Part shown: positions 43,278 to 58,099 of the stretch, in pieces | Layout: every line of letters begins with the position of its first letter | How positions within the stretch are numbered: position 1 is the stretch's first letter | Assembly: GCA_025359205.1 (NCBI GenBank) | Contig: JANYHD010000019.1 | Location: 62,001-126,000, forward strand | DNA length: 64,000 bases | Direction: 5' to 3' | DNA from: Gammaproteobacteria bacterium | GTDB lineage: Bacteria > Pseudomonadota > Gammaproteobacteria > Steroidobacterales > Steroidobacteraceae | Program-made: the position numbers and the translations under genes | The notes under the pieces: generated by a model | The model's database searches: none | Told to the model about the DNA's origin: nothing | What the model saw: only the letters and a program-made list of their open reading frames with translations

Positions 43278-44471
43278 CTATTTCACTTCGCGCGTGAAGC
43301 GGGCCGCAACGCGCCGGTAGGCCTCGCGGAAGGGTAGCCCCTCTTTCATCACCAGCGCAAAGGCCTCGCCGGCGGCATGCACCGCTGGATCGATGACGAT
43401 GCTAGCGGGCTTGAACTGCAGCGCGTCGATGGCTGGCGCCACGATTTCCAGGCTTTGCGCGGCAAGGTCGATGCCGCGGAATAGTGGCCCCTTGAGCAGC
43501 TGCAGGTCGCGCTGGTAGCCGGAGGGCAGCTTCGCGCACAGCGCGAGCGCCTCGGTCAGGCAGGCCAGTGCGGTGGCGCCGCGGCCGCGCAGCAGCTCGA
43601 ACACGTCCGGATTGCGCTTCTGCGGCATGATCGAGGAGCCGGTGGTGAAGGCTTCAGGCAGCTCCACGAAGGCAAATTCGCGAGTGCCAAACAGCAGCAG
43701 GTCGGCCGCCATGCGTCCCAGGTCCTGCATCAGCAGCGTCACTTCGAACAACAGCTGCGCCTCGGCCTTGCCGCGCGAGAGCTGCACCGCGGTGACCGGC
43801 TCGTGCGTGGACGCGAACCCGAGGGCGCTGGTGGTCGCGGCGCGATCGAGCGGGAGCCCGGGAGTCCCGTAGCCGGCGGCCGAGCCCAGCGGATTGCGGT
43901 CGGCCCGGCGCAGCACAGCGCGCAGGCCCTCGGCGTCGTCGCGCAGTTCGGCCGCAAAGCCGCCCGCCCACAGCGCCACTGTGCTCGGCATGGCCTGTTG
44001 CATGTGCGTGTAGCCGGGCAGGGCGACCGCACCCTGGCGCAGACCCAGGCGGTCAAGCGCTGCCGCGGCGGCGTCTGCGCCGTCGGCCAGTTCGGCGAGC
44101 GCGTCCCGCATGTAAAGGCGCAGTGCGGTCAGCACCTGGTCATTGCGCGAGCGGCCGAGGTGAATACGCCCGCCGGCCGCGCCGATGCGCGCGGTCAGGC
44201 GCTTCTCGAGCGCGGTCTGGCCGTCCTCGTCCTCGAGCCCGATGCGCCATTCGCCGCGCCCATGCTCGGCGCCCAGGGCAGTCAGCCCGTCGCGGATCGC
44301 AGCAGTGTCGGTTGCGCTGAGCAGCCCCTGTGCCTGCAACATCTCGGCGTGAGCGATCGAGGCATGCACGTCGGCGGCCACCAGGCGTTCGTCGAGCGCA
44401 TGGTCCTCGCCCGCGGTGTAGCGCAGTACCCGCTCGTCGAGCGGCGCGCCCTTGTCCCATAGTCTGCTCAT
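43278..44471 (-). CDS. argH: Argininosuccinate lyase
   Basis: 397 aa; splits argininosuccinate to arginine and fumarate in the last step of arginine synthesis. Fumarase-superfamily signature GSSIMPQKRNPDVFELLRG, with HLGRSRNDQVLT and GYTHMQQAMPSTVALW. It is about 60 residues shorter than the E. coli enzyme, mainly at the C-terminus, as in some xanthomonad-type enzymes. The start ATG has AGGAG at 6 nt. It is separated from the main arg operon by murJ and has its own promoter region. Confidence 0.95.
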   Translation of the reverse strand: MSRLWDKGAPLDERVLRYTAGEDHALDERLVAADVHASIAHAEMLQAQGLLSATDTAAIRDGLTALGAEHGRGEWRIGLEDEDGQTALEKRLTARIGAAGGRIHLGRSRNDQVLTALRLYMRDALAELADGADAAAAALDRLGLRQGAVALPGYTHMQQAMPSTVALWAGGFAAELRDDAEGLRAVLRRADRNPLGSAAGYGTPGLPLDRAATTSALGFASTHEPVTAVQLSRGKAEAQLLFEVTLLMQDLGRMAADLLLFGTREFAFVELPEAFTTGSSIMPQKRNPDVFELLRGRGATALACLTEALALCAKLPSGYQRDLQLLKGPLFRGIDLAAQSLEIVAPAIDALQFKPASIVIDPAVHAAGEAFALVMKEGLPFREAYRRVAARFTREVK

Positions 44472-44601
44472 GCGGCTCCTGCCTCGCGAAGGCTGTTCCA
44501 TGATAGTCCGGGGATCCGGGCGGCGCTCGCGGTGCGGGCCCTTGCGGCGTGGCTACGGCAGCTGCACAATTGATTCATTAGTGGTTCAAAATGGCCTGTT
44601 G

Positions 44602-46306: not shown

Positions 46307-46332
46307 CCTGTGCGTGTGTACAGACCCTAGTC
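46307..46332 (+). repeat. Dispersed gene-end motif, copy 5
   Basis: CCTGTGCGTGTGTACAGACCCTAGTC. The CTA supplies the argB stop; the motif lies just ahead of murJ. Confidence 0.45.
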
Positions 46333-47280
46333 TACAGCCTCGCCGGGGGCGGATTGCTGCTCGGCGCTGCTCAGCGCCTTGACGTCAGCCACGATCAGCG
46401 TGCCGGTGCCTTCATTGGTGAACACCTCGGCGAGGATCGCATCCGGCGAGCGGTAGCCGATGACATGCACGCGGCGCACGCCGCCGCTGATCGCATCTTC
46501 GATGGCCATGGCCTTGGGCAGCATGCCGTCGTTGATCTTGCCCGCTGCACGGAGCCGACGCAGGCCCGCCAGGTCGGTGTAGGAAATCACCGAGCCGGGA
46601 TCGTTGATGTCTTCGAGTATCCCAGGCGCGCCGGTGCACAACATCAGCTTCTCAGCCTGCAGCGCGGCACCGATGGCGGCGGCCACCGTGTCGGCATTGA
46701 TGTTGAGCAGCTGGCCGCGTGCATCGGCCGACAGCGGGCTGATGACCGGCATCAAGCCGTTGTCCAGGTGCTTGCGGATCACGCTGGTATCGATGCGATC
46801 GATATCGCCGACAAAACCGAAGTCGACGGTCTCCGCGTCGGTCGGATTCAGCTTCACCGGTGGACGGCGATGCGCCTGCACCAGCGCCGCGTCCACGCCC
46901 GAGAGCCCGACCGCCGCGATCTCGAGATCGCGGCAGATCGCGAGGATCCGCGTATTGATCAGGCCGTTGAGCACCATCGAGGTGGCGTCGATCGCCTTTT
47001 CGTCGGTGATGCGTCGTCCCTGCACCATGCGGGTCGGCACGCCCATCGCCTCGGTAACCTCAGTGAGCTGCGGGCCGCCACCGTGCACCATCACGACGCG
47101 CACGCCGAGGTAGTGCAGGATCGCGATCTGCTCGATCAGCGCGCGCGTCATGTCCGCGTCGCCGAATACGGCGCCACCCGCCTTGACGACGAAGATCTTG
47201 CCTTTGTACATGCGGATGTAGGGCGCGGCCGCGCGCAGCGCGCGGATCGTGGCGACCTGGTCGGTGCGGTGCAGTTTCAT
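46327..47280 (-). CDS. argB: N-acetylglutamate kinase
   Basis: 317 aa amino acid kinase. The glycine loops are VVKAGGAVFGD and VMVHGGGPQLTE. The substrate region has GINADTVAAAIG-type LLNINADTVAAAIGAAL, and the C-terminus has KINDGMLPKAMAIEDAISGG. The sequence is closest in style to the kinase half of the xanthomonad bifunctional synthase-kinase, but there is no acetyltransferase domain attached, so it can only phosphorylate. The ATG gives MKLHRTDQVATIRALR. The TAG stop lies in a copy of the dispersed motif. It is the sixth arg gene after the argR promoter. Confidence 0.93.
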   Translation of the reverse strand: MKLHRTDQVATIRALRAAAPYIRMYKGKIFVVKAGGAVFGDADMTRALIEQIAILHYLGVRVVMVHGGGPQLTEVTEAMGVPTRMVQGRRITDEKAIDATSMVLNGLINTRILAICRDLEIAAVGLSGVDAALVQAHRRPPVKLNPTDAETVDFGFVGDIDRIDTSVIRKHLDNGLMPVISPLSADARGQLLNINADTVAAAIGAALQAEKLMLCTGAPGILEDINDPGSVISYTDLAGLRRLRAAGKINDGMLPKAMAIEDAISGGVRRVHVIGYRSPDAILAEVFTNEGTGTLIVADVKALSSAEQQSAPGEAVD

Positions 47281-47320: not shown

Positions 47321-48325
47321 TCAGGGCTTGAGCATGCGATAGAGCACGGCCATCTGCGCCGGCATGCGGTTGTAGGCCTGGCGCAGCACGATACTGCGCG
47401 GGCCGTCGAGCACTTCATCGGCGATGGCGCTGTTGCGCCGCACGGGCAGGCAGTGCATCACGCGACAGTCGTCCGCGCTGCCCGCAAGCCAGTCGTTGCG
47501 CAGGCACCAGTGCTTGAGCGATCGGCGCTGCGCCTGATCGGCGGCCTCGTCGCCGTAGTGGCGGGTGCTGCCCCATTCTTTTGCGTACACCACATGCGCG
47601 CCCTCGAGCGCCGCGGCGCGATCGGCCGTTTCCGTGAGGCTCCCGCCGCTGGCCGCCGCAGCGCGGCGCGCCTTGTCCATGATCGCGGCAGGCAGGGCGT
47701 AGCCTTCGGGGCGCAGCACGACCACATCCATGCCGCGCATCGCGGCCATGTGCACGGTGGCCGCCGGCACCGCCAGCGGCAGGGCCTTCGGGTGCGAGAC
47801 CCAGCTCAGCACGAACTTGCGACGGCCGCTGCCCGGCAGTTCATCGAGCGTCTTCCAGTCGGCGAGCGCCTGGCAAGGATGATTGATGGCGGACTCGAGG
47901 TTGATGAGCGGACGCTCGACGAGCGCCGCCATGGCGTTGAAACGGCGGTCGGCGATATCGACCTCCAGATCCTCGCCGGCGGCGAAGGCGCGGATGCCGA
48001 GCGCGTCACAGTAGGAAGCGAGCACGGGCAGGCCTTCGCGGATGTGCTCGGCGGCCGCGCCGGTCATCACGGCGCCGTCGCGCGTCTCGAACTGCCAGGT
48101 GCTCTGCCCAGGCGTGATCACGAAGGAATCACCGCCGAGCCGCGCCATGCCGGCCTGGAACGAGGCCAGCGTGCGGAGCGAGGGATTCATGAACAGGAGC
48201 CCTAGCACCTTGCCGGCCAGCGCCTGCGGTTCGGGCCGGGATTCCAGCCGGCGCGCGAGCGCGAGCAGTTCCTGCACCTGCTCGAGCGTCAGTTCCGCGA
48301 GGTCCGTGAAGCGTTGCATGGACAT
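47321..48325 (-). CDS. argF': N-acetylornithine (or N-succinylornithine) carbamoyltransferase
   Basis: 334 aa transcarbamylase of the acyl-ornithine branch. The carbamoyl-phosphate loop is FMNPSLRTLASFQAG rather than the STRTR of ornithine transcarbamylase. The STWQFETRDGAVMTGAAAEHI segment matches the substrate loop of acetyl- and succinyl-ornithine enzymes. HPCQALADWKTL and HCLPVRRNSAIADEVLDG complete the active site, the latter in the acyl-enzyme form HCLPxRRN. The family evidence implies that acetyl- or succinyl-citrulline is made and must be deacylated later. Acetyl versus succinyl specificity cannot be settled here. Confidence 0.85.
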   Translation of the reverse strand: MSMQRFTDLAELTLEQVQELLALARRLESRPEPQALAGKVLGLLFMNPSLRTLASFQAGMARLGGDSFVITPGQSTWQFETRDGAVMTGAAAEHIREGLPVLASYCDALGIRAFAAGEDLEVDIADRRFNAMAALVERPLINLESAINHPCQALADWKTLDELPGSGRRKFVLSWVSHPKALPLAVPAATVHMAAMRGMDVVVLRPEGYALPAAIMDKARRAAAASGGSLTETADRAAALEGAHVVYAKEWGSTRHYGDEAADQAQRRSLKHWCLRNDWLAGSADDCRVMHCLPVRRNSAIADEVLDGPRSIVLRQAYNRMPAQMAVLYRMLKP

Positions 48326-48337
48326 GCACAGCGCCGC

Positions 48338-49531
48338 TCAGGCGCCGATCTCCAGCAGCGCCGCGCGCAGCTGCTCGACGTGCGCAGGCTCCAGGATATA
48401 GGGCGGCAGCAGTCGCAGCACCGCCGGGTCGGCGCTGGTGCCGGCCAGGATGTCGCGCTTGAGCAAGGCGGCGTGCACTTCCTTCGCCGGCCGGCTGCAG
48501 ATCAGCCCGGCCAGCAGGCCCGCGCCCTGGTGGCCGCGCACCGGACCCACGATGCAGCGCTCGCGGATCAGCTCGCCGATATGGCGCACGTTGGCGAGCA
48601 GGTGTTCGGATTCGATCGCCTCGATGACCGCCTCGATCGCCGCGCAGGCCATCGGACCGCCACCGAAAGTGGTACCCAGCGCGTCGAGCTTCACGGCGGC
48701 GGCGACGCGCGGGCTCATCAGCAGCGCGGCGCAGGGAAAACCATTGCCGAGTGCCTTGGCAGTCGTGATCATGTCGGGCATCACGCCATAGAGGTTGGCG
48801 GCGAAGGCCGCGCCGCTGCGGCCCATGCCGCATTGCACTTCGTCAAAGATGAGCACAGTGCCGGTCGCATCGCAGCGCCGCCGCAGCGCGTGCAGGTAGT
48901 CGGCACCCAGATCGAAGGCGCCGCCCACGCCCTGCACCGGCTCCACGATCACGGCGGCGGTCCGCGCGGTGATGTGCTCGAGCGATGGGAGATCGCGGCG
49001 CGGGAGGAAGCGCACCTCGAAGGCCGCGCGTGGAAAGCCGTACCACTTGGACGCGGCGCCCCAGGTGATGGCGCCGGCTGCGGCCGTCCGACCATGAAAT
49101 GCATGCTCAAGCGCCACGACTTCGCTGCGGCCAGTGAGCGTGAAGGCCATCTTCAGCGCATTCTCATTAGCCTCGGCGCCCGAATTGACCAGGAAGACCT
49201 GGGTGAAGTGACCGCCGGCGAAGCGCAGCAGGCTAGCGCCCGCGCGCGTGCGCACCGCGAGTGGCACGGCGTTGCTCTGGAAGTTGAGCGTGGCCGCCTG
49301 CTGCTGCAGCGCGCGCGTCCAGCCCGGATGCGCGTAGCCCAGCGCCGCCACCGCATGACCGCCGTAAAGGTCAAGCACGCGGCGATTGTCGCTGGTGTGC
49401 AGCCATACGCCGCTCGCCGAGCTCACCGCGAGCGGATACTGCGCGAACACGGGCGCCAGCGGATCGGCGGCCGCGGTGAGCGCGGCCGCAGTGGCCGGGT
49501 GCGTGTGGGGCGTTGCAATGGCCGCGCTCAC
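48338..49531 (-). CDS. argD: Acetylornithine aminotransferase
   Basis: 397 aa class III PLP aminotransferase. NSGAEANENALKMAF and HAFHGRTAAAGAITW line the cofactor site. The IFDEVQCGMGRSG motif is followed by the PLP-binding Lys in TTAKALGNGFPCAALL. It transfers an amino group from glutamate to acyl-glutamate semialdehyde. I start at the GTG just after the argC stop (2-nt gap); the frame is open further upstream without support. argC precedes and the transcarbamylase follows. Confidence 0.9.
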   Translation of the reverse strand: MSAAIATPHTHPATAAALTAAADPLAPVFAQYPLAVSSASGVWLHTSDNRRVLDLYGGHAVAALGYAHPGWTRALQQQAATLNFQSNAVPLAVRTRAGASLLRFAGGHFTQVFLVNSGAEANENALKMAFTLTGRSEVVALEHAFHGRTAAAGAITWGAASKWYGFPRAAFEVRFLPRRDLPSLEHITARTAAVIVEPVQGVGGAFDLGADYLHALRRRCDATGTVLIFDEVQCGMGRSGAAFAANLYGVMPDMITTAKALGNGFPCAALLMSPRVAAAVKLDALGTTFGGGPMACAAIEAVIEAIESEHLLANVRHIGELIRERCIVGPVRGHQGAGLLAGLICSRPAKEVHAALLKRDILAGTSADPAVLRLLPPYILEPAHVEQLRAALLEIGA

Positions 49532-49533
49532 GC

Positions 49534-50592
49534 CTACGTCCAGCCCGGGGCTGCAGCCGTGAGTCCCATGGTTTCCGGAAACCCCTGCAGGCGGTTCATC
49601 CACTGCAATGCGCCCCCGGCCGCGCCCTTGTTGAGATTGTCGGCGACGCTCATCACGGCAAGTGTTTGGCCATCGCTGACAGCGCTGAGGCGGGCGTAGC
49701 AACTCGCGACGATCTCCTTGAGCCGCGGCGGCGAGTCGCCGACCTGCACGAGCGGCGAATGCGCGTAGAAATCGGTCAGGCGCGCGAGCAGCGTCGCGGT
49801 GTCGAGCGGGCGGCGCAGCACGGCCTGCACGGTGGCGTGGATGCCGCGCGCATACGGGCCCGAGTGCGGCACGAACGCGAAATGAGCAGCCACGCCGCTC
49901 GCGGCCAGTGCGCAGGCGGCGATCTCGGCGGTGTGGCGATGCGTGAGCGCGTTGTAGGCGTATAGGTCGCCGTGACGCAGCGGGTGGTGCGTGCCCTCAA
50001 CGGGTTTGCGGCCCGAGCCGGTGCTGCCCGTGGTGGCGGCGACGAACAATTGCGGCTCGACCAGGTCGAGCGCCAGCAGCGGCACCGCGGCCAGCAGAAT
50101 GGTGGTGGCGAAGCAGCCGGGATGGGCCACGTGCGGCGTCGTGAGCTCGCGCAGGTGTTCGGGCACCGCGCAGGTGAATTGCCCGATGCGTGCGGGCGCG
50201 CCGTGGGGATGCCCGTAGACCGCCTCATAGGCCGGCGCAGTCGCGTAGCGGAAGTCCGCCGAGATATCGACCACGCGCGGCGCGTTGCCGGCTTTCTCGG
50301 CCGTGGTGAGCAGCGCATCGATGAGTCTTGCGGACACGCCGTGCGGAGCGGCGGCGAGGATCGCCGGTGCACGCTCCTGCCGCAGCAGCGCTTCGATCTG
50401 CGCCTGCGACTTGAACTGCTCGTCGGGGTACAGCGGCGCCAGGTGCGGAAAGGCCCTGGCCACGAGTTCGCCAGGGCTGCCGTCGGACATGATGCCCTCC
50501 AGCTGCAGCTGCGGGTGCGCGGCAATCAGTCGCAGCAGCTCGCCGGCCACGTAGCCGGTGCCGCCGAGCACGATCGTGGGTACGCGGCTCAC
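49534..50592 (-). CDS. argC: N-acetyl-gamma-glutamyl-phosphate reductase
   Basis: 352 aa NADPH-dependent reductase. The Rossmann motif is VLGGTGYVAGELLRLIAAHP, the catalytic Cys is in VAHPGCFATTILLA and the conserved His lies in THHPLRHGDLYAYN. SGSTGSGRK-type ATTGSTGSGRKP is diagnostic. It uses a GTG start, 4 nt after the DUF1611 gene. Confidence 0.93.
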   Translation of the reverse strand: MSRVPTIVLGGTGYVAGELLRLIAAHPQLQLEGIMSDGSPGELVARAFPHLAPLYPDEQFKSQAQIEALLRQERAPAILAAAPHGVSARLIDALLTTAEKAGNAPRVVDISADFRYATAPAYEAVYGHPHGAPARIGQFTCAVPEHLRELTTPHVAHPGCFATTILLAAVPLLALDLVEPQLFVAATTGSTGSGRKPVEGTHHPLRHGDLYAYNALTHRHTAEIAACALAASGVAAHFAFVPHSGPYARGIHATVQAVLRRPLDTATLLARLTDFYAHSPLVQVGDSPPRLKEIVASCYARLSAVSDGQTLAVMSVADNLNKGAAGGALQWMNRLQGFPETMGLTAAAPGWT

Positions 50593-50596
50593 GTGC

Positions 50597-51676
50597 TCAC
50601 TCGGCTACGCGGGCCACGGCTGCGCGCGCACCCAGGCCCACGGCCTCGATCACCGCATCGCCGAGCGCAGCCGGATTGCTGATGGCGTTGCAGGCGGGCA
50701 CCTTCAGCTGCTGCTCGATGATGTCGACGCCGACCTGGTTGTCGGTGGACGGGCCCGTGACCATGCAGGGTTCAACCTTGAAACGATCACGCAGCAGCTG
50801 CACGCCGCCCCAGGCTGCGACCGGATCGTTGGCCGAGAGCACGAGGCCGGTGATGGCGCGGCGGATGTCCTCGCAGTTGAGGATCGCATCGACGCCGTAG
50901 GTGCCGAGCAGTCCGTCGCCGAGCTCGAACACGATGACGTCGGGCTTGCCGGCCGCCAGCTCGGTGAGCATGGTGCGCGTGAGCGCGGGCCCCGTACGCT
51001 GCGAGGTGGTGACCACGCCGAGGTCGGTAAAGAGCATCGATTTGCGCGCGCCGGCATCCTCGAAGGCCATGATGTCGCGGCGGAGCGAGACGCCGGTCGC
51101 CTTGAACGCGTCGACCACCAGGCCGCGGTGGCGCATGCGCGAGATGATCGCCGCCGCGGCCGCGGTCTTGCCCGCCTCCATGCAGGTGCCGGCCAGCGCC
51201 ACCACGGGCACGCCGCGCGCGTCGAGTACGGTCTCATAGTTCAGCCGCCGGAAGCCGACGCGCGCCGGTACGCCGATGCGCTCGCCCAGGTACGGGAACT
51301 GCAGCACCACGCCCAGCACGCGGCAATCGAAGGGCTTGCCCTTGTCGGGCGTAGCCGAGTCGCACACACCCATGACGCCGCCGATGTTCAGCATCTGGAT
51401 GACATCGCCGGGCTTGAGCGATTCGGGCACGTGGCCCGAGTAACCGAACAGCGCCTTGCGCGGCCCAAGCGCGCCGACCACCACGTCGCCGCGTGCGACC
51501 TTGGCCATGCGGCCGCTGGTGAGCTCGAGCGGGTTGTAGGTGGACTTGTTGTTGAGGATCTCGGCGACGATCACCACGCCTTCCTCGGCGGGGATCTCGT
51601 CCGCGATGCGCAGCTCGTAGCCGAGCGCGCAGGCCTGCGTGATGGAGGCGATCTTGTCGACGACCACGGTCTTCAC
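50597..51676 (-). CDS. DUF1611 (DgcN-like) protein, candidate N-acyltransferase of arginine synthesis
   Basis: 359 aa. The N-terminal domain (to about residue 150) contains AEILNNKSTYNPLELTSGRMAKVA. The C-terminal P-loop-like domain begins with VVALAGTCMEAGKTAAAAAII (Walker A-type GTxxxxGKT), followed by FKATGVSLRRDIMAFEDAGA and VIVFELGDGLLGTYGVDAIL. This is the DUF1611 layout. A member of this family, DgcN, is known as a D-glutamate N-acetyltransferase. Here the gene lies inside the arginine operon, overlapping argG and 4 nt from argC, where an N-acetylglutamate synthase would be expected. Assignment to glutamate N-acylation is my inference. Confidence 0.75.
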   Translation of the reverse strand: MKTVVVDKIASITQACALGYELRIADEIPAEEGVVIVAEILNNKSTYNPLELTSGRMAKVARGDVVVGALGPRKALFGYSGHVPESLKPGDVIQMLNIGGVMGVCDSATPDKGKPFDCRVLGVVLQFPYLGERIGVPARVGFRRLNYETVLDARGVPVVALAGTCMEAGKTAAAAAIISRMRHRGLVVDAFKATGVSLRRDIMAFEDAGARKSMLFTDLGVVTTSQRTGPALTRTMLTELAAGKPDVIVFELGDGLLGTYGVDAILNCEDIRRAITGLVLSANDPVAAWGGVQLLRDRFKVEPCMVTGPSTDNQVGVDIIEQQLKVPACNAISNPAALGDAVIEAVGLGARAAVARVAE

Positions 51677-52917
51677 GGTTGCTTCCTCCCTGCAGCCGCC
51701 AGCTCACCGGCCCGCGCATGGAACATGCCGGTCAGCGCCACGATCTTGGAGAATCCGAGCGCGTCGGCGCTGGTCCACTCGCCGGCCGCCTCGCCGTACA
51801 CGCCCTTCGAGGCGCTCATCAGCGAGTACGGCGATTCCACGCCTTCGACGAACACGTTGCCCGGCCGGAACAGCAAGTGGACTTCGCCACTGACGCGCTG
51901 CTGCGAGGACAGGAACAGCGTCTCGATGTCGCGGCATACCGGGTCGAGCAGCTGGCCCTCGTGCACCCAGTCGCCGTAGGGCAGGGCGAGGGTCTCCTTG
52001 ATGCGTTGCTGGCGCGGCGTGAGCACGAGCTTCTCCAGCTCGCGGTGCGCGGTGAGCAGCACCTCGGCGGCCGGCGCTTCGAAGGCTACGCGGCCCTTGG
52101 TGCCGATTATCGTGTCGCCAAGGTGGATGCCGCGGCCTATACCGAAGGGTGCGGCCAGCGCTTCGAGACGTTCGATCAGCTCGACCGGCGTGAGTGTCTT
52201 GCCGTCGAGTGCGGCGGGCCGGCCCTGCTCGAAACGCAGCGTGTGATGTTGCGGGAGCGGGGGATGGTCGAAGGCATTCTTCGAGAGCACCCACGCGCTC
52301 TCGGGGATGCTGCCTTTTGAAGTCAGCGTCTCGGTGCCGCCGATGGTCACGCCCCACAGGCCGCGGTTGGTGGAGTAGGCCGCGCCGTACGGTGGCACGG
52401 GCATTTGCCGCGCGCGCAGGTACTCGAGCTCTTCGACGCGCTTGAAGGCGCGATCGCGCACCGGCGCGATAATCTCCAGTTCCGGCGCCAGCGTGCGCAG
52501 CGCGACTTCGAAGCGCACCTGGTCGTTCCCGGCCGCGGTGCAGCCATGCGCAATCGAGTTCGTGCCGAGCTTATGTGCCATGAGCGCAATGGTCTGCGCC
52601 TGCATGACGCGCTCGGCCCCCACGCACAGCGGATAGAGCTGGCCGCGGCGCACGTTGCCCATGACCAGGAAACGCAGCACCTGTTCGTAGTAGTCGGCAC
52701 GGGCATCCACCTGGTGGTGATCGATGGCGCCCAGCGCCAGCGCCCGCTCGCGCAAGGCCACGGCCGCTGCGGCATCGATGCCGCCGGTGTCGACCGTCAC
52801 GGTGATAACCGGGCGCTGGTATTGCCCGGCAATCCACGGCACCAGGAACGAGGTGTCGAGGCCGCCGGAATAGGCCAGCACGATGGGCTTTGCGCCCGCG
52901 TTCGCAGCAGTCGTCAT
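51673..52917 (-). CDS. argG: Argininosuccinate synthase
   Basis: 414 aa. The PP-loop motif is VLAYSGGLDTSFLVPWI. Other conserved segments are IAHGCTAAGNDQVRFEVAL and YSTNRGLWGVTIGG. It joins citrulline and aspartate with ATP. The ATG is 4 nt after argR, and the end overlaps the DUF1611 GTG by 4 nt. The C-terminal part (HLLFRPGNVFVEGVESPYSLMS) matches the shorter bacterial branch of the family. Confidence 0.93.
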   Translation of the reverse strand: MTTAANAGAKPIVLAYSGGLDTSFLVPWIAGQYQRPVITVTVDTGGIDAAAAVALRERALALGAIDHHQVDARADYYEQVLRFLVMGNVRRGQLYPLCVGAERVMQAQTIALMAHKLGTNSIAHGCTAAGNDQVRFEVALRTLAPELEIIAPVRDRAFKRVEELEYLRARQMPVPPYGAAYSTNRGLWGVTIGGTETLTSKGSIPESAWVLSKNAFDHPPLPQHHTLRFEQGRPAALDGKTLTPVELIERLEALAAPFGIGRGIHLGDTIIGTKGRVAFEAPAAEVLLTAHRELEKLVLTPRQQRIKETLALPYGDWVHEGQLLDPVCRDIETLFLSSQQRVSGEVHLLFRPGNVFVEGVESPYSLMSASKGVYGEAAGEWTSADALGFSKIVALTGMFHARAGELAAAGRKQP

Positions 52918-52921
52918 GGAT

Positions 52922-53374
52922 TCAGACCCCGAAGTGTTCGCGCAATCGTGCGAGCAGGCGCTGCTGCGCGCGCCCGTCCGGCGTCGCAATGAAGATGGTG
53001 TCGTCGCCCGAGATCGTGCCGACCACTTCCGGCCAGGCCGCCTTGTCGAGCGCCACGGCCACACTCTGCGCGGCGCCGGTGCTGGTGCGCAGCACCGTGA
53101 GCGACGCGCCGGCCGGGCGCGCCGAGCGCACGAACTGCGCCAGCGCGCCGAAGCTCCCGTTGGCGTGCGCAGTCTCGGTGGGTGGCGCCAGGTAGCGGCC
53201 GCTTGCCTTGAGCACGCCCAGTTCCCGCAGGTCACGGCTCACGGACGACTGCGTCACCGGAATGCCGCGCTTGCGCAGCAGCTGCGTCAGCTCGGATTGC
53301 CGGCGCACCACGCCACTGCTGAGAAGCGCGAGGATGGCCTCACGCCGTTCCTGCAGGTGGTGGTCGTTCAGCAT
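52922..53374 (-). CDS. argR: Arginine repressor
   Basis: 150 aa. The N-terminal winged helix (residues 1-70) has [29 protein letters not shown]. The C-terminal hexamerisation/arginine-binding domain has [17 protein letters not shown], including the arginine-contacting GDD. As first gene of the operon, with two likely operators directly upstream, it should repress itself and the arg genes when arginine is plentiful. Confidence 0.95.
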
Positions 53375-53383
53375 GGCCGCATG

Positions 53384-53418
53384 TGCATAAACATGCGAGC
53401 AGTGTGCATAAATATGCA
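53384..53418 (-). promoter_or_regulatory. Tandem ArgR operators (ARG boxes)
   Basis: Two near-identical imperfect palindromes, TGCATAAACATGCG (53384-53397) and TGCATAAATATGCA (53405-53418), are exactly 21 bp apart. That is the spacing of paired ARG boxes (18-bp boxes with 3 bp between). They begin 10 bp upstream of the argR start codon. The arms are TGCAT/ATGCA, as in actinobacterial boxes, rather than TGAAT/ATTCA. Confidence 0.8.
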
Positions 53419-53481
53419 GGAGCAGTCAAGCCGGGCCCGCGGCGCTTGCTGGCAGTTGCGCCGGGGTGGATGATCGGCAGC

Positions 53482-54170: not shown

Positions 54171-55538
54171 ATGTTGCCGGAAGAGGTACGAACCGCCGCA
54201 CAGGCCCGTGCGATCGTGGAAGAGCGCGGCCTGCATCACGTCAAGGTCGGCATCTTCGACAGCGACGGGATCCTGCGCGGCAAATACATCAACCGCGACA
54301 AGTTCCTGGCGGCGCTCGATAAGGGGATTGGCTTCTGCGACGTTGTGCTCGGCTGGGATTCGAACGACAAGCTCTACGACAACGTCAAGTTCACCGGCTG
54401 GCATACCGCCTACCCCGACGCCATGGTGAAGCTGCTGCCCGGAACCTGCCGCAATCTGCCGCTCGAGGGCAACATGCTGCTGTTCCTGGGCGAGTTCATC
54501 GGCAGGGCCGAGCAGATCTGCCCGCGCTCCACCTTGCGCCGCGTGGTGGAGCGGGCCGCGGCCTCCGGCTACGACGTATCGGCAGCGGCCGAGTTCGAGT
54601 TCTTCATATTCAATGAAACGCCCGACAGCGTGCGCGCCAAAGACTACCGCGACATGCAGCACCTGACGCCCGGCTACTTCGGCTACTCGTTGCTGCGCGC
54701 CTCGGTTCACTGCGAGCTCTACCAGGCGCTGCTGCAGCTGGCCGCCGACATGCGCATGCCGATCGAGGGGCTGCACACCGAGACCGGTCCCGGCGTGCTC
54801 GAGGCGGCGCTCAAGTATTCCGAGGCGCTGGAGGCGGCCGACCGCGCGGCGCTGTTCAAGACCTTCGCCAAGGTGCTGGCGCAGCGGCGCGGCCTGATGG
54901 CGACCTTCATGGCGAAGTGGTCTCAGCACATGCCCGGCCAGAGCGGTCATCTGCACGTGTCGATGACGCGCAAGGACGGCTCGTCGGTGTTCCATGACGA
55001 GCGCAAGCCGCACACCATGTCGGACGAGATGCGCTGGTTCGTCGGCGGCCAGCAGGCATTGATGCCAGAACTCCTGGCGATGGTCGCCTCGACCGTCAAC
55101 AGCTACTCGCGGCTGGTGCCCGGCTTCTGGGCGCCGACCTCGGCGACCTGGGGCGTCGAGAACCGCACCTGCGCGCTGCGCGTCATCCAGGGGGGACCTG
55201 CGAGCCAGCGCGTGGAATACCGCATCGCCGCGGCCGACATCAATCCCTATCTCGCGATCGCGGTCGCGATCGGCTCCGGCCTGTGGGGCATTGAGCAACG
55301 CATCGAGCCGGACGAACCCATGGTGGGCAATGCTTACGAGCGCAAGCTCCCGGCAAAGCGGCAGCTGCCGCGTACGTTGAGCGAGGCCGCCTCGATGCTG
55401 GCGCGCTCCAAGGCGGCGCAGGAACTGTTCGGCGCGCCCTTCGTCGAACATTTCGCCGCCAGCCGCGAGTGGGAGGAGCGCGAGTTCCGCCGCCACGTCA
55501 CGGACTGGGAACTGGCGCGTTATTTTGAAATCATCTAG
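54171..55538 (+). CDS. Glutamine-synthetase-like gamma-glutamyl amine ligase
   Basis: 455 aa member of the GS fold family. The N-terminal beta-Grasp part has VGIFDSDGILRGKYINRDKF. The catalytic part has AAAEFEFFIFNET (metal Glu pair), GLHTETGPGVLEAAL, KWSQHMPGQSGHLHVSM (ATP/metal His) and NRTCALRVIQGGPASQRVEYRIAAADINPYLAIAV. GSs that make glutamine carry different N-terminal and adenylylation segments. This one groups by pattern with PuuA/IpuC/GlnA4-type ligases that join glutamate to an amine. It is the first gene of an operon with aldehyde and alcohol dehydrogenases and an amidotransferase. Confidence 0.85.
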   Translation: MLPEEVRTAAQARAIVEERGLHHVKVGIFDSDGILRGKYINRDKFLAALDKGIGFCDVVLGWDSNDKLYDNVKFTGWHTAYPDAMVKLLPGTCRNLPLEGNMLLFLGEFIGRAEQICPRSTLRRVVERAAASGYDVSAAAEFEFFIFNETPDSVRAKDYRDMQHLTPGYFGYSLLRASVHCELYQALLQLAADMRMPIEGLHTETGPGVLEAALKYSEALEAADRAALFKTFAKVLAQRRGLMATFMAKWSQHMPGQSGHLHVSMTRKDGSSVFHDERKPHTMSDEMRWFVGGQQALMPELLAMVASTVNSYSRLVPGFWAPTSATWGVENRTCALRVIQGGPASQRVEYRIAAADINPYLAIAVAIGSGLWGIEQRIEPDEPMVGNAYERKLPAKRQLPRTLSEAASMLARSKAAQELFGAPFVEHFAASREWEEREFRRHVTDWELARYFEII

Positions 55539-55553
55539 GCGTTGGCGGGCAGC

Positions 55554-56936
55554 ATGCTGAAAACCATCAGCCCGGTCGACGGGCGCGTTTACGTCGAGCG
55601 GCCCGCGGCCACGGCGACCGAGATCGACGCGACGCTGCAGCGCGCGCAAGCCGCGCAACGCCATTGGCGCGGCGTGCCCGTCCCGGAGCGGGCCGCGATC
55701 ATGGAGCGCTTCTGCGCGGCCTTCGAGGTGCGCGGCGCGGAGATCGCTGCCGAGCTGAGCTGGCAGATGGGGCGCCCGAGCCGATACGCGCCCAATGAAG
55801 TGCGCGGCATGCTCGAGCGTGCGCGCTACATGACCAGCATCGCCGGCGAAGCGCTGGCGGACATTGAGGTCGGCCCGAAGCCCGGCTTTCACCGGTTCCT
55901 CAGGCGCGAGCCGCTCGGCGTCGTGTTCACGGTGGCGGCGTGGAACTACCCGTACCTGATTGCCGTGAACAGCGTGGTGCCGGCACTGCTGGCCGGCAAC
56001 GCCGTGGTGCTCAAGCATTCGGCGCAGACGCCGCTGTGCGCCGAACGCTACGCGGAGTGCTTCACGGCCGCAGGCCTGCCCGCTGGCGTGTTCCAGGTGC
56101 TGCACCTCGAGCATGCGGACACCGAGCGCGTCATCCGCGATTCGCGCGTCGATTTCGTCGCCTTCACCGGGTCGGTGGCCGGCGGTCACGCCGTGCAGCG
56201 CGTGGCGGCGGAGCGTTTCATCGGTGTCGGGCTTGAGCTCGGCGGCTGCGATCCGGTCTACGTGCGGCACGATGCCGACCTTGCGCACGCGACCCTGAAC
56301 ATCGTCGACGGCGCGTATTTCAATTCCGGCCAGTCCTGCTGCGGCATGCAGCGCATCTACGTGCACGAGAGCGTGTACGAACGCTTCGCCGCCGGCGCCA
56401 CCGAGCTCGTGCGCCAGTACACGCTCGGCAATCCGCTCGATGCGGCGACGACGCTCGGCCCGGTGGTGCGCAGCAGCGCCGCGGACGCGATCCGCGCCCA
56501 GGTCCAGTCTTCGATCAAGGCCGGCGCTCGGCCCGTGATCGACGAGCGCGCCTTCACCTTAAGCAAGCCCGGCACGCCTTATCTCGCGCCGCAACTGCTG
56601 CTCGATGCGCCGCCCACCTCGACCGTGATGCGCGAGGAGATCTTCGGGCCCGTCGCCGGCGTCATGAAGGTGAGCTCGGATAGCGAGGCCGTGGCGCTCA
56701 TGAATGACAACGCCTTCGGGCTCACGGCCGCGGTCTGGTCGCGCGACGAGGCGGCGGCTCTGGCGATTGGCGACCAGTTGCAGACCGGGACATTCTTCCT
56801 CAATCGCTGCGACTACCTCGATCCGGCGCTCGCTTGGGTGGGCGTGAAGGATTCCGGCCGCGGCTGCACGCTCTCGGTGATCGGCTACGAGCACCTGACG
56901 CGGCCCAAGTCCTTCCATCTGCGGGTGACGACGTGA
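55554..56936 (+). CDS. NAD(P)-dependent aldehyde dehydrogenase
   Basis: 460 aa. The cofactor region is TVAAWNYPYLIAVNSVVPALLAGNAVVLKHS. FTGSVAGGHAVQRVA lies in the Rossmann fold. The general base Glu is in GLELGGCDPVYV, where the usual GGK is GGC. The catalytic Cys is in YFNSGQSCCGMQRIYV. The terminal EEIFGPVAGVMKV and LPALAWVGVKDSGRG-type segments are conserved. The ATG is preferred; a TTG four codons upstream is possible. It lies directly after the GS-like ligase and probably oxidises a gamma-glutamyl amino aldehyde. Confidence 0.87.
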   Translation: MLKTISPVDGRVYVERPAATATEIDATLQRAQAAQRHWRGVPVPERAAIMERFCAAFEVRGAEIAAELSWQMGRPSRYAPNEVRGMLERARYMTSIAGEALADIEVGPKPGFHRFLRREPLGVVFTVAAWNYPYLIAVNSVVPALLAGNAVVLKHSAQTPLCAERYAECFTAAGLPAGVFQVLHLEHADTERVIRDSRVDFVAFTGSVAGGHAVQRVAAERFIGVGLELGGCDPVYVRHDADLAHATLNIVDGAYFNSGQSCCGMQRIYVHESVYERFAAGATELVRQYTLGNPLDAATTLGPVVRSSAADAIRAQVQSSIKAGARPVIDERAFTLSKPGTPYLAPQLLLDAPPTSTVMREEIFGPVAGVMKVSSDSEAVALMNDNAFGLTAAVWSRDEAAALAIGDQLQTGTFFLNRCDYLDPALAWVGVKDSGRGCTLSVIGYEHLTRPKSFHLRVTT

Positions 56937-58099
56937 GCGCAATACTCAAGGCGAACTGGAACTACCCAACCAAAGTCTGGCACGGGCCAGGGCGTATCGG
57001 CGAGCTTCCGGCTGCGTGTGCGGTCTTAGGCATCAAGCGCCCGCTGCTGGTGACCGACGAAGGATTGCGCGACGCGCCGATGGTGCAGGCCGCACTGGCG
57101 CTGGTGCCGGGCACGGGCCTATTCGCAGGCGTGCGCGGCAATCCCGTCGCGGCGAACATCGAAGCGGGTCTCACCGCTTACCGCGCCGGCGGACATGACG
57201 GCGTCATTGCCTTCGGCGGCGGCTCGGCACTCGATGCCGGCAAGGTCATCGCCTTCATGTCGGGGCAGACGCGCCCACTGTGGGATTTTGAGGACATCGG
57301 CGATTGGTGGACACGCGCCAACGAGCGTGGCATCGCGCCGGTCGTAGCCGTGCCGACCACCGCGGGTACGGGTTCCGAAGTCGGCCGCGCCGGCGTGGTT
57401 ATCAACGAGGCTACGCACCAGAAGAAGATCATCTTCCATCCGCAGATGATGCCGGGCGTGGTGATCAGCGATCCCGAGCTCACCGTGGGCCTCCCGCCGG
57501 GCGTCACGGCGGCGACCGGCATCGATGCTTTCGTGCATTGTTTCGAGGCCTATTGCGCCCCCGGCTTTCACCCGCTGGCCGATGGCATTGCGCTTGAGGG
57601 CATGCGTCTCATCCAGACCTGGCTGCCGCGCGCCTGCGAGAACGGCAAGGACATCGAGGCGCGCTCGCGCATGCTGGCGGCGGCGAGCATGGGTGCCACC
57701 GCCTTCCAGAAAGGCCTGGGCGGCGTGCATGCGATCGCGCATCCGGTCGGCGCGTTCTTCAATACACACCATGGCCTGACCAACGCCGTCATCCTTCCGT
57801 ACGTGATTGTGCATAACCGACTAGCGATCGGGTCGCAACTGGCCGTGATCGCGCGAGTGCTCAATCTCAAGGGCGAACCCTTCGACGCGGTGTTCGACTG
57901 GGTGCTGGCGTTCCGCCAGCGGCTGAAGATCCCGCACACGCTGGCTGAGATCGGCGTGGACCTGCGCAACCCCGAAGTCATCGGCAACGAGGCCTCGCTC
58001 GATCCTTCGGCCGGTGGCAACCCCTTGCCCACCGATGCCGCTGGCTACGCGCGATTGTTCCGTTCCGCGGTCAAAGGCGACCTGGCGCTCAAGGGCTGA
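56933..58099 (+). CDS. Iron-containing alcohol dehydrogenase
   Basis: 388 aa group III dehydrogenase. The NAD site is IAFGGGSALDAGKVIAFM and VPTTAGTGSEVGRAGVV. Metal ligands fall in DPELTVGLPPGVTAATGIDAFVHCFEAY (Asp, His), GVHAIAHPVGAFFNTHHG (two His). The GTG start overlaps the aldehyde dehydrogenase stop by 4 nt. An alcohol dehydrogenase beside a gamma-glutamyl ligase suggests that the ligated amine carries a hydroxyl group. Confidence 0.88.
   Translation: MSAILKANWNYPTKVWHGPGRIGELPAACAVLGIKRPLLVTDEGLRDAPMVQAALALVPGTGLFAGVRGNPVAANIEAGLTAYRAGGHDGVIAFGGGSALDAGKVIAFMSGQTRPLWDFEDIGDWWTRANERGIAPVVAVPTTAGTGSEVGRAGVVINEATHQKKIIFHPQMMPGVVISDPELTVGLPPGVTAATGIDAFVHCFEAYCAPGFHPLADGIALEGMRLIQTWLPRACENGKDIEARSRMLAAASMGATAFQKGLGGVHAIAHPVGAFFNTHHGLTNAVILPYVIVHNRLAIGSQLAVIARVLNLKGEPFDAVFDWVLAFRQRLKIPHTLAEIGVDLRNPEVIGNEASLDPSAGGNPLPTDAAGYARLFRSAVKGDLALKG

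Follow-up and report, generated by a model that had tools for sequence, protein, structure and literature searches.

We propose that the gene between argG and argC in the arginine operon analysed here, called X below, encodes the L-glutamate N-acyltransferase that starts arginine synthesis, most likely an N-succinyl-L-glutamate synthase, and that the pathway runs through succinylated intermediates with DapE as a plausible desuccinylase. We give this reading a probability of roughly 0.6; within it, we infer the catalytic activity of X, its substrate, its acyl donor (succinyl-CoA, or succinate together with ATP) and the role of DapE. The original prediction had described X as a DUF1611 protein making either N-acetyl- or N-succinyl-L-glutamate, with D-glutamate salvage and mere co-regulation as the alternative. 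That X starts the pathway appears well supported by its conservation, by ArgR-type sites, by the lack of a recognisable ArgA, ArgJ or NAGS-K and by the mutual exclusion with NAGS-K. Between the two acyl groups, the residues of the carbamoyltransferase ArgF' and the missing ArgE favour succinyl, while salvage is disfavoured by the conserved place of X in the arg operon and by its replacement by NAGS-K.

The arginine operon and its control

In the window (the whole stretch of DNA analysed, 64,000 nucleotides) the operon reads argR-argG-X-argC-argD-argF'-argB, the neighbours of X being identified with Pfam and NCBIfam (Table 1). With the most plausible starts, argG and X overlap by 4 nt and the gaps measure 4 nt (argR-argG and X-argC), 2 nt (argC-argD), 12 nt (argD-argF') and 40 nt (argF'-argB). 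The continuous operon first described around X, with gaps or overlaps of 2-40 nt, is thus borne out, and so is an ArgB that carries no extra domain in Pfam or NCBIfam. A murJ-like ORF lies between argH and the operon. A fused ArgH(A) can be ruled out as the starter, since ArgH is 407 aa long and has no acetyltransferase extension. On the opposite strand beside the operon (54171-58099) we observed a glutamine-synthetase-type protein, an aldehyde dehydrogenase and an ORF that by eye looks like an alcohol dehydrogenase; together they may serve the gamma-glutamylation of amines.

Table 1. Arginine genes and ARG-box-like sites in the window.
Feature	Position	Strand	Remarks
X, predicted N-succinyl-L-glutamate synthase; P-loop protein distantly related to DUF1611/DgcN	50597-51676	-	359 codons, GTG start
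argG, argininosuccinate synthase	51673-52917	-	ATG at 52917; stop overlaps X start by 4 nt
argR, arginine repressor	52922-53374	-	first gene of the operon
argC, N-acyl-glutamyl-phosphate reductase	49534-50592	-	TIGR01850, 260 bits vs cut-off 233.6
argD-type aminotransferase	48338-49531	-	proposed start GTG 49531
argF', carbamoyltransferase	47321-48325	-	N-acetylornithine-type in NCBIfam; Ala92, Pro183, Ala300
argB, stand-alone N-acyl-glutamate kinase	46327-47280	-	ATG at 47280; without acetyltransferase domain
argH, argininosuccinate lyase	43278-44501	-	407 aa; without fused NAGS domain
ARG-box-like site 1	53382-53399	.	15/18 to relaxed E. coli consensus
ARG-box-like site 2	53403-53420	.	17/18; sole such score in the 64-kb window

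The two ARG-box-like sites stand just before argR, spaced by 3 bp; the consensus behind their scores is a relaxed form of that of E. coli. Among relatives, a site of at least 15/18 occurs upstream of argR in 77 of the 82 loci with enough sequence, compared with 48 of 1640 control windows, which were random 180-base windows from the same loci and may in some cases contain the site itself. These sites before argR, in the window and in its relatives, point to X being in all likelihood under arginine control.

Starters and deacylases in the genome

The genome is a draft of 2.98 Mb in 43 contigs with 97.4% completeness. Profile searches of it gave no match to ArgJ (PF01960) and none to the acetyltransferase (NAT) domain of NAGS-K (PF04768), a model that also matched 0 of 14 control genomes and has its positives within the order as its sole control; the ArgA model matched ArgB alone, below cut-off. 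The absence of an ArgA, ArgJ or NAGS-K starter, first noted for the operon, therefore extends to genome-wide profile searches.

GNAT genes were sought with the PF00583 model, which found 12 acetyltransferases, RimI among them, none a recognisable NAGS when all 12 were scanned with NCBIfam. RimI alone exceeds an NCBIfam cut-off, an ArsN1b-like protein falls just below (206.5 vs 210), and the remaining ones have no equivalog close to its cut-off. NF005921, which we take to be of the short-NAGS type, was listed once (18.9 vs 180 bits); scores with the CG3035 NAGS model were 35.7 (on RimI) and 27.5 against 280. Any of the 12 could be a divergent short NAGS, GNAT starters being hard to tell by sequence. 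The real starter would then be an unrecognised GNAT, and X would be a true DgcN in D-glutamate salvage, or have another role such as deacylation, and be merely co-regulated; we return to this possibility with the distribution of X.

No acetylornithine or acetylcitrulline deacetylase was recognised in the genome, either among six of its nine M20 matches scanned with NCBIfam or with an ArgE profile. The six (L182-L187) are DapE (543.8 bits), an amidohydrolase, two proteins of the hydantoinase/allantoate-amidohydrolase kind, a glutamate-carboxypeptidase-like protein and one of PRK09133 type. The ArgE profile, built from five NAGS-K operons, scored at best 70 bits, on the DapE gene. With no recognised starter and no ArgE, both the acylation of glutamate and the deacylation of the carbamoylated product are therefore left without a known enzyme. 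DapE is a desuccinylase, and its name is the sole fitting one among the six scanned M20 proteins, which plausibly makes it the desuccinylase of this pathway.

Conservation of the operon

X keeps its place with great constancy. Across a set of 80 loci, all of them records titled MAG, argG stands immediately before X in 79/79 readable cases and argC immediately after it in 78/78, so the placement is not due to chance; all seven operon genes follow one order in 60 of the 80. The median identities in this set are 79.3% for argG, 77.4 for X, 73.9 for argB, 70.9 for argF', 68.2 for argD, 66.5 for argC and 62.8 for argR, which puts X close behind argG and ahead of the other five. In other families of the order the same gene order returns in 12/12 loci, with X identity down to about 55%, and argF' (63.8) is there slightly ahead of X (62.4).

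Four more distant loci were found. Three of them read argD-argF'-argB-argH-argG-X-argC with a divergent argR, and the contig of the fourth ends early. Since argG-X-argC is kept in 3/3 distant loci with this other gene order, X belongs firmly to both operon layouts. A tree of 44 proteins places the X sequences of the order in one group (support 100/100) and separates X together with the distant four from the paralogues described below with support 91/92. Two MAG records titled Klebsiella pneumoniae (L051 and L073) contain the arg operon with an X 74-75% identical to that of the window; these titles are almost surely wrong.

Distribution in the family, order and class

The original prediction called for a survey of related genomes. 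X gave a match in 98/100 genomes of its own family, one of which (G093) has only a 33% paralogue; this leaves 97 that carry an orthologue or part of one, among them every one of the 69 of good quality. ArgA exceeded its cut-off in 0/100 family genomes. ArgJ was found in 0/69 good-quality genomes and in 1/100 overall (G106, 75% complete), where it is an end piece of 98 aa.

This distribution bears on the salvage reading. An orthologue or fragment of X is in 97/100 family genomes, X lies always between argG and argC where the position is readable, and the two operon layouts contain an identical partner set. The dgcN gene adjoins the racemase gene dgcA, and no dgcA-type neighbour is present in the operon. 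Moreover, NAGS-K replaces X in sister lineages. For all the unassigned GNAT proteins of the genome, we therefore hold salvage or another merely co-regulated role to be very improbable.

Among the 147 genomes of the order, 115 have a match to X and 109 an orthologue or fragment, the six left out (G109, G113, G134, G155, G164 and G214) having only a paralogue at 28-33%. The NAT domain occurs in 21/147 and never together with an X orthologue (Fisher p 2e-15, although the genomes are related and this is not an independent-sample probability). An operon-type ArgE (profile >300 bits) is present in 19/147 genomes, including 18 of the 21 with the NAT domain, and likewise never occurs with X. That X excludes NAGS-K domain and ArgE alike, in a genome without a recognised ArgE, would suit an ArgJ-like transacylase that takes the acyl group off N-acylcitrulline and passes it to glutamate, standing in for both NAGS and ArgE. 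Yet X has no match to ArgJ, such an enzyme would not be expected to have a P-loop, and DapE could take off a succinyl group, so that we see only a slim chance for a transacylase. In 17 of the 109 X genomes another M20 protein reaches 113-152 bits to the ArgE profile, and a further deacylase is therefore possible there.

In a single family (f7), X is present in 21/23 genomes, one genome (G225) has NAT and ArgE, and another (G214) has neither X nor NAT. Across the order 17/147 genomes have neither an X orthologue nor the NAT domain; 13 of them belong to f10 (G115, G118 and others) and to the small-genome family f13, and in G145 part of an ArgE was seen where a contig ends. The f10 and f13 cases may reflect a different starter, gene loss or arginine auxotrophy. 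Three f13 genomes (G169, G179 and G184) were seen to have the NAT domain without ArgE. When 369 genomes from across the class were searched (E <= 1e-40), X turned up in nine; of these, four lie outside the order, with an X identity of 43-45%.

Family, fold and conserved residues of X

The DUF1611 label given to X does not reach Pfam standards but holds as a remote kinship. X scores 13.8 bits against PF07755 (E 0.04, over 40 residues on the P-loop), below the Pfam cut-off of 25. At E <= 10 Pfam returns DUF1611 and MobB alone, both below cut-off, with no GNAT and no ArgJ. X by itself exceeds no family cut-off in Pfam, NCBIfam or PHROGs, a phmmer search of PDB sequences with X had no match at 0.001, and profiles of X, of X with its paralogues and of the paralogues returned only weak BioD/MobB or chance matches. 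Among X orthologues, 38/43 match PF07755 at E <= 10 (best E 0.0022). The paralogues, here called Y (n=21), come from the same order and are 24-30% identical to X in the alignment (25-32% in blastp), with both domains covered; 18/20 match PF07755 at E <= 0.01, and two of them (L127 and L194) exceed the cut-off with 27.7 bits. As X itself has no direct significant sequence match, the link to DUF1611 and DgcN rests on these paralogues and on the fold.

An AlphaFold model of X computed on an alignment with Y has a pLDDT of 94.5; with the 43 orthologues alone the value was 69, and the Y sequences raised it. The model has two domains, the N-terminal one (about 1-150) mostly beta and the other (about 153-359) with the P-loop. 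In a structure search that hardly reached the N-terminal 150 residues, the P-loop domain matched 2G0T (Z 16.8) and 2OBN (Z 16.1), both of DUF1611 type, and 7XRJ, titled 'N-acetyltransferase DgcN', at Z 15.3 over 188 residues with 12% identity. We take DgcN to be an acetyl-CoA enzyme of DUF1611 type. BioD (dethiobiotin synthetase) and CTP synthase match as well as DgcN does, at Z about 15-16.7, and the fold therefore does not single out acyl transfer.

The GTCMEAGKT motif pointed out at the outset is present, with G163, T164, M166, G169, K170 and T171 invariant in 50 aligned sequences of X and paralogues, as are K192, G195, D201, D218, E251 and D284. X has the consensus signature ELGDGxLGxYGV where the Y consensus is EAGASPLEPYNG. 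Nucleotide-site residues that are kept, beside positions at which X differs from Y, are as expected if X is a related enzyme with a new substrate.

The same residues bear on another chemistry, in which X would be an ATP-dependent ligase holding Mg-ATP on its P-loop and turning succinate or another acid into an acyl phosphate, to be attacked by the amino group of glutamate. The invariance of the whole P-loop together with K192, D201, D218 and E251 would suit such an enzyme, and so would the resemblance of the C-terminal domain to the amide-forming BioD and CTP synthase. A weak sequence match between X and BioD (E 0.57-0.59, alone not significant) also superposes the P-loops and K192. On the other side, DgcN has the same fold and is titled an acetyltransferase, and the P-loop might instead accommodate the CoA phosphates; a ligase thus seems to us decidedly unlikely.

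Y has surroundings of its own. By eye, in 7 of 8 Y loci (L194-L197, L201, L202, L206 and L210, the exception being L195) it directly follows an M20-type hydrolase, and a small protein of the DPxWERFFxxAPLVLVG kind is found near the pair in L194, L197, L201, L206 and L210. This is a second conserved system, possibly for acylated amino acids.

ArgF' and the acyl group

According to the passages on these residues in PMC4581275, AOTCase has Glu92, Asn185 and Lys302 where SOTCase has A/S/P/V/Q, P and V/I/E, respectively, and a passage in PMC7311316 adds that the succinylated form is preferred when the first position is S, P, A or V. At these three positions the ArgF' of the window has Ala92, Pro183 and Ala300. 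Ala92 and Pro183 are SOTCase-type, and the X lineage agrees, with Ala at position 92 in 88/88 loci and Pro at position 185 in 87/87, counts of loci that include the same genome twice (e.g. L006 and L020) and not of independent events. At the third position 76 of 87 X-lineage loci have Ala and the other 11 Val, and Ala300 of the window is neither the Lys of AOTCase nor within the V/I/E published for SOTCase. Three distant X operons show the complete published SOTCase pattern (P-P-E, P-P-E and V-P-E). The NAGS-K loci that hold argF' (n=7) have Glu in 7, Asn in 7, and Lys in 6 with Gln in 1. As potential further evidence we discarded the difference between 3l02_A (Ala) and 3m4n_A (Glu) at the position of residue 92 (chain number minus 20), because the phmmer matches of ArgF' to the two chains were tied (1.7e-57 and 1.8e-57).

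NCBIfam names ArgF' an N-acetylornithine carbamoyltransferase (NF003384, 340.5 vs cut-off 288). Taken at its word, this name would suit an X that is an N-acetyl-L-glutamate synthase using acetyl-CoA, in effect a DgcN-like enzyme that has turned to L-glutamate, with a DapE-like or other hydrolase deacetylating the citrulline; the nearest solved enzyme by name, DgcN, is moreover titled an N-acetyltransferase. But the window's ArgF' is without Glu92, Asn185 and Lys302, Glu92 is missing from every X-lineage locus counted (88/88), and the NAGS-K loci of the same order retain Glu and Asn (7/7). In addition, the operon-type ArgE of 18/21 NAGS-K genomes is missing wherever X occurs. We consider an acetyl pathway unlikely, and NF003384 probably mislabels this clade, two of the three diagnostic residues being succinyl-type. 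On balance, the ArgF' residues and the missing ArgE point to succinylated intermediates, one of the two options of the original prediction. A succinyl pathway would explain the missing ArgE, DapE being a desuccinylase already.

Discussion

In the succinyl pathway that we favour, X would convert succinyl-CoA and L-glutamate to N-succinyl-L-glutamate and CoA, its P-loop holding the phosphates of CoA, as may be so in DgcN. ArgB, ArgC and ArgD would work on succinylated intermediates, and ArgF' would carbamoylate N-succinylornithine. A hydrolase encoded outside the operon, plausibly DapE, would then remove the succinyl group from N-succinylcitrulline, after which ArgG and ArgH would complete arginine. 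These downstream steps would be as in the Bacteroides scheme, in which, according to passages in PMC7311316, ArgB is an N-succinylglutamate kinase and BT3549, the candidate desuccinylase, is distantly related to a DapE.

Xanthomonas-type NAGS-K resembles X in that it starts the pathway next to a carbamoyltransferase of the knotted group, and it is the system that replaces X in sister lineages. Its intermediates are acetylated, and it differs from X in that the acetyltransferase domain is fused to the kinase, ArgE is in the operon and ArgF' has E-N-K. BioD and CTP synthase share with X the C-terminal fold and conserved acidic residues, the P-loop of BioD being of the GTxxxxGKT kind; they use ATP on other substrates, whereas X carries in addition some 150 N-terminal residues that form a mostly beta domain. 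With DgcN X has the fold of the P-loop domain in common, and each would attach an acyl group to the amino group of glutamate. Unlike DgcN, X stands among arginine genes and not beside the racemase gene dgcA, and its predicted substrates are L-glutamate and a succinyl donor. The description of DgcN (PDB 7XRJ) as a glutamate N-acetyltransferase draws on the PDB title and on passages in PMC12363236. The latter, a survey of the Mariana Trench, names Woeseiales as one of the significant carriers of dgcN; if its dgcN profile also catches X or Y, some of these counts may, speculatively, be arginine-operon genes.

A functional counterpart is ArgA2 (BT3761) of Bacteroidetes, which has the same predicted reaction and a SOTCase-type carbamoyltransferase as partner. 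ArgA2, the proposed N-succinylglutamate synthase of Bacteroidetes, belongs to the GNAT family according to a passage in PMC9026213, in contrast to X, which has a P-loop fold without any match to GNAT. Another replacement described there, ArgA3, is homologous to N-acetylcysteine deacetylase (PMC9026213). The known starters otherwise comprise ArgA, ArgJ, ArgO, S-NAGS and C-NAGS, as listed in a passage of PMC3827942, and NAGS-K (PMC4490483); the latter review, from 2015, expected a GNAT-like enzyme for the succinylation of glutamate. Among the matches listed from open-licence PMC papers, a collection without subscription papers and preprints, there was no report of a P-loop or DUF1611-like arginine starter.

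If our reading is true, X fills a pathway gap in a large and mostly uncultured group (109/147 genomes of the order), a gap that without X could pass for arginine auxotrophy. It would bring a P-loop fold that is not of the GNAT family to the first step of arginine synthesis, and were X a ligase after all, most of a bacterial order would start arginine without GNAT chemistry and without acyl-CoA. Succinylated arginine synthesis would reach from Bacteroidetes into Gammaproteobacteria, and DUF1611-like proteins would gain an anabolic role that can be tested.
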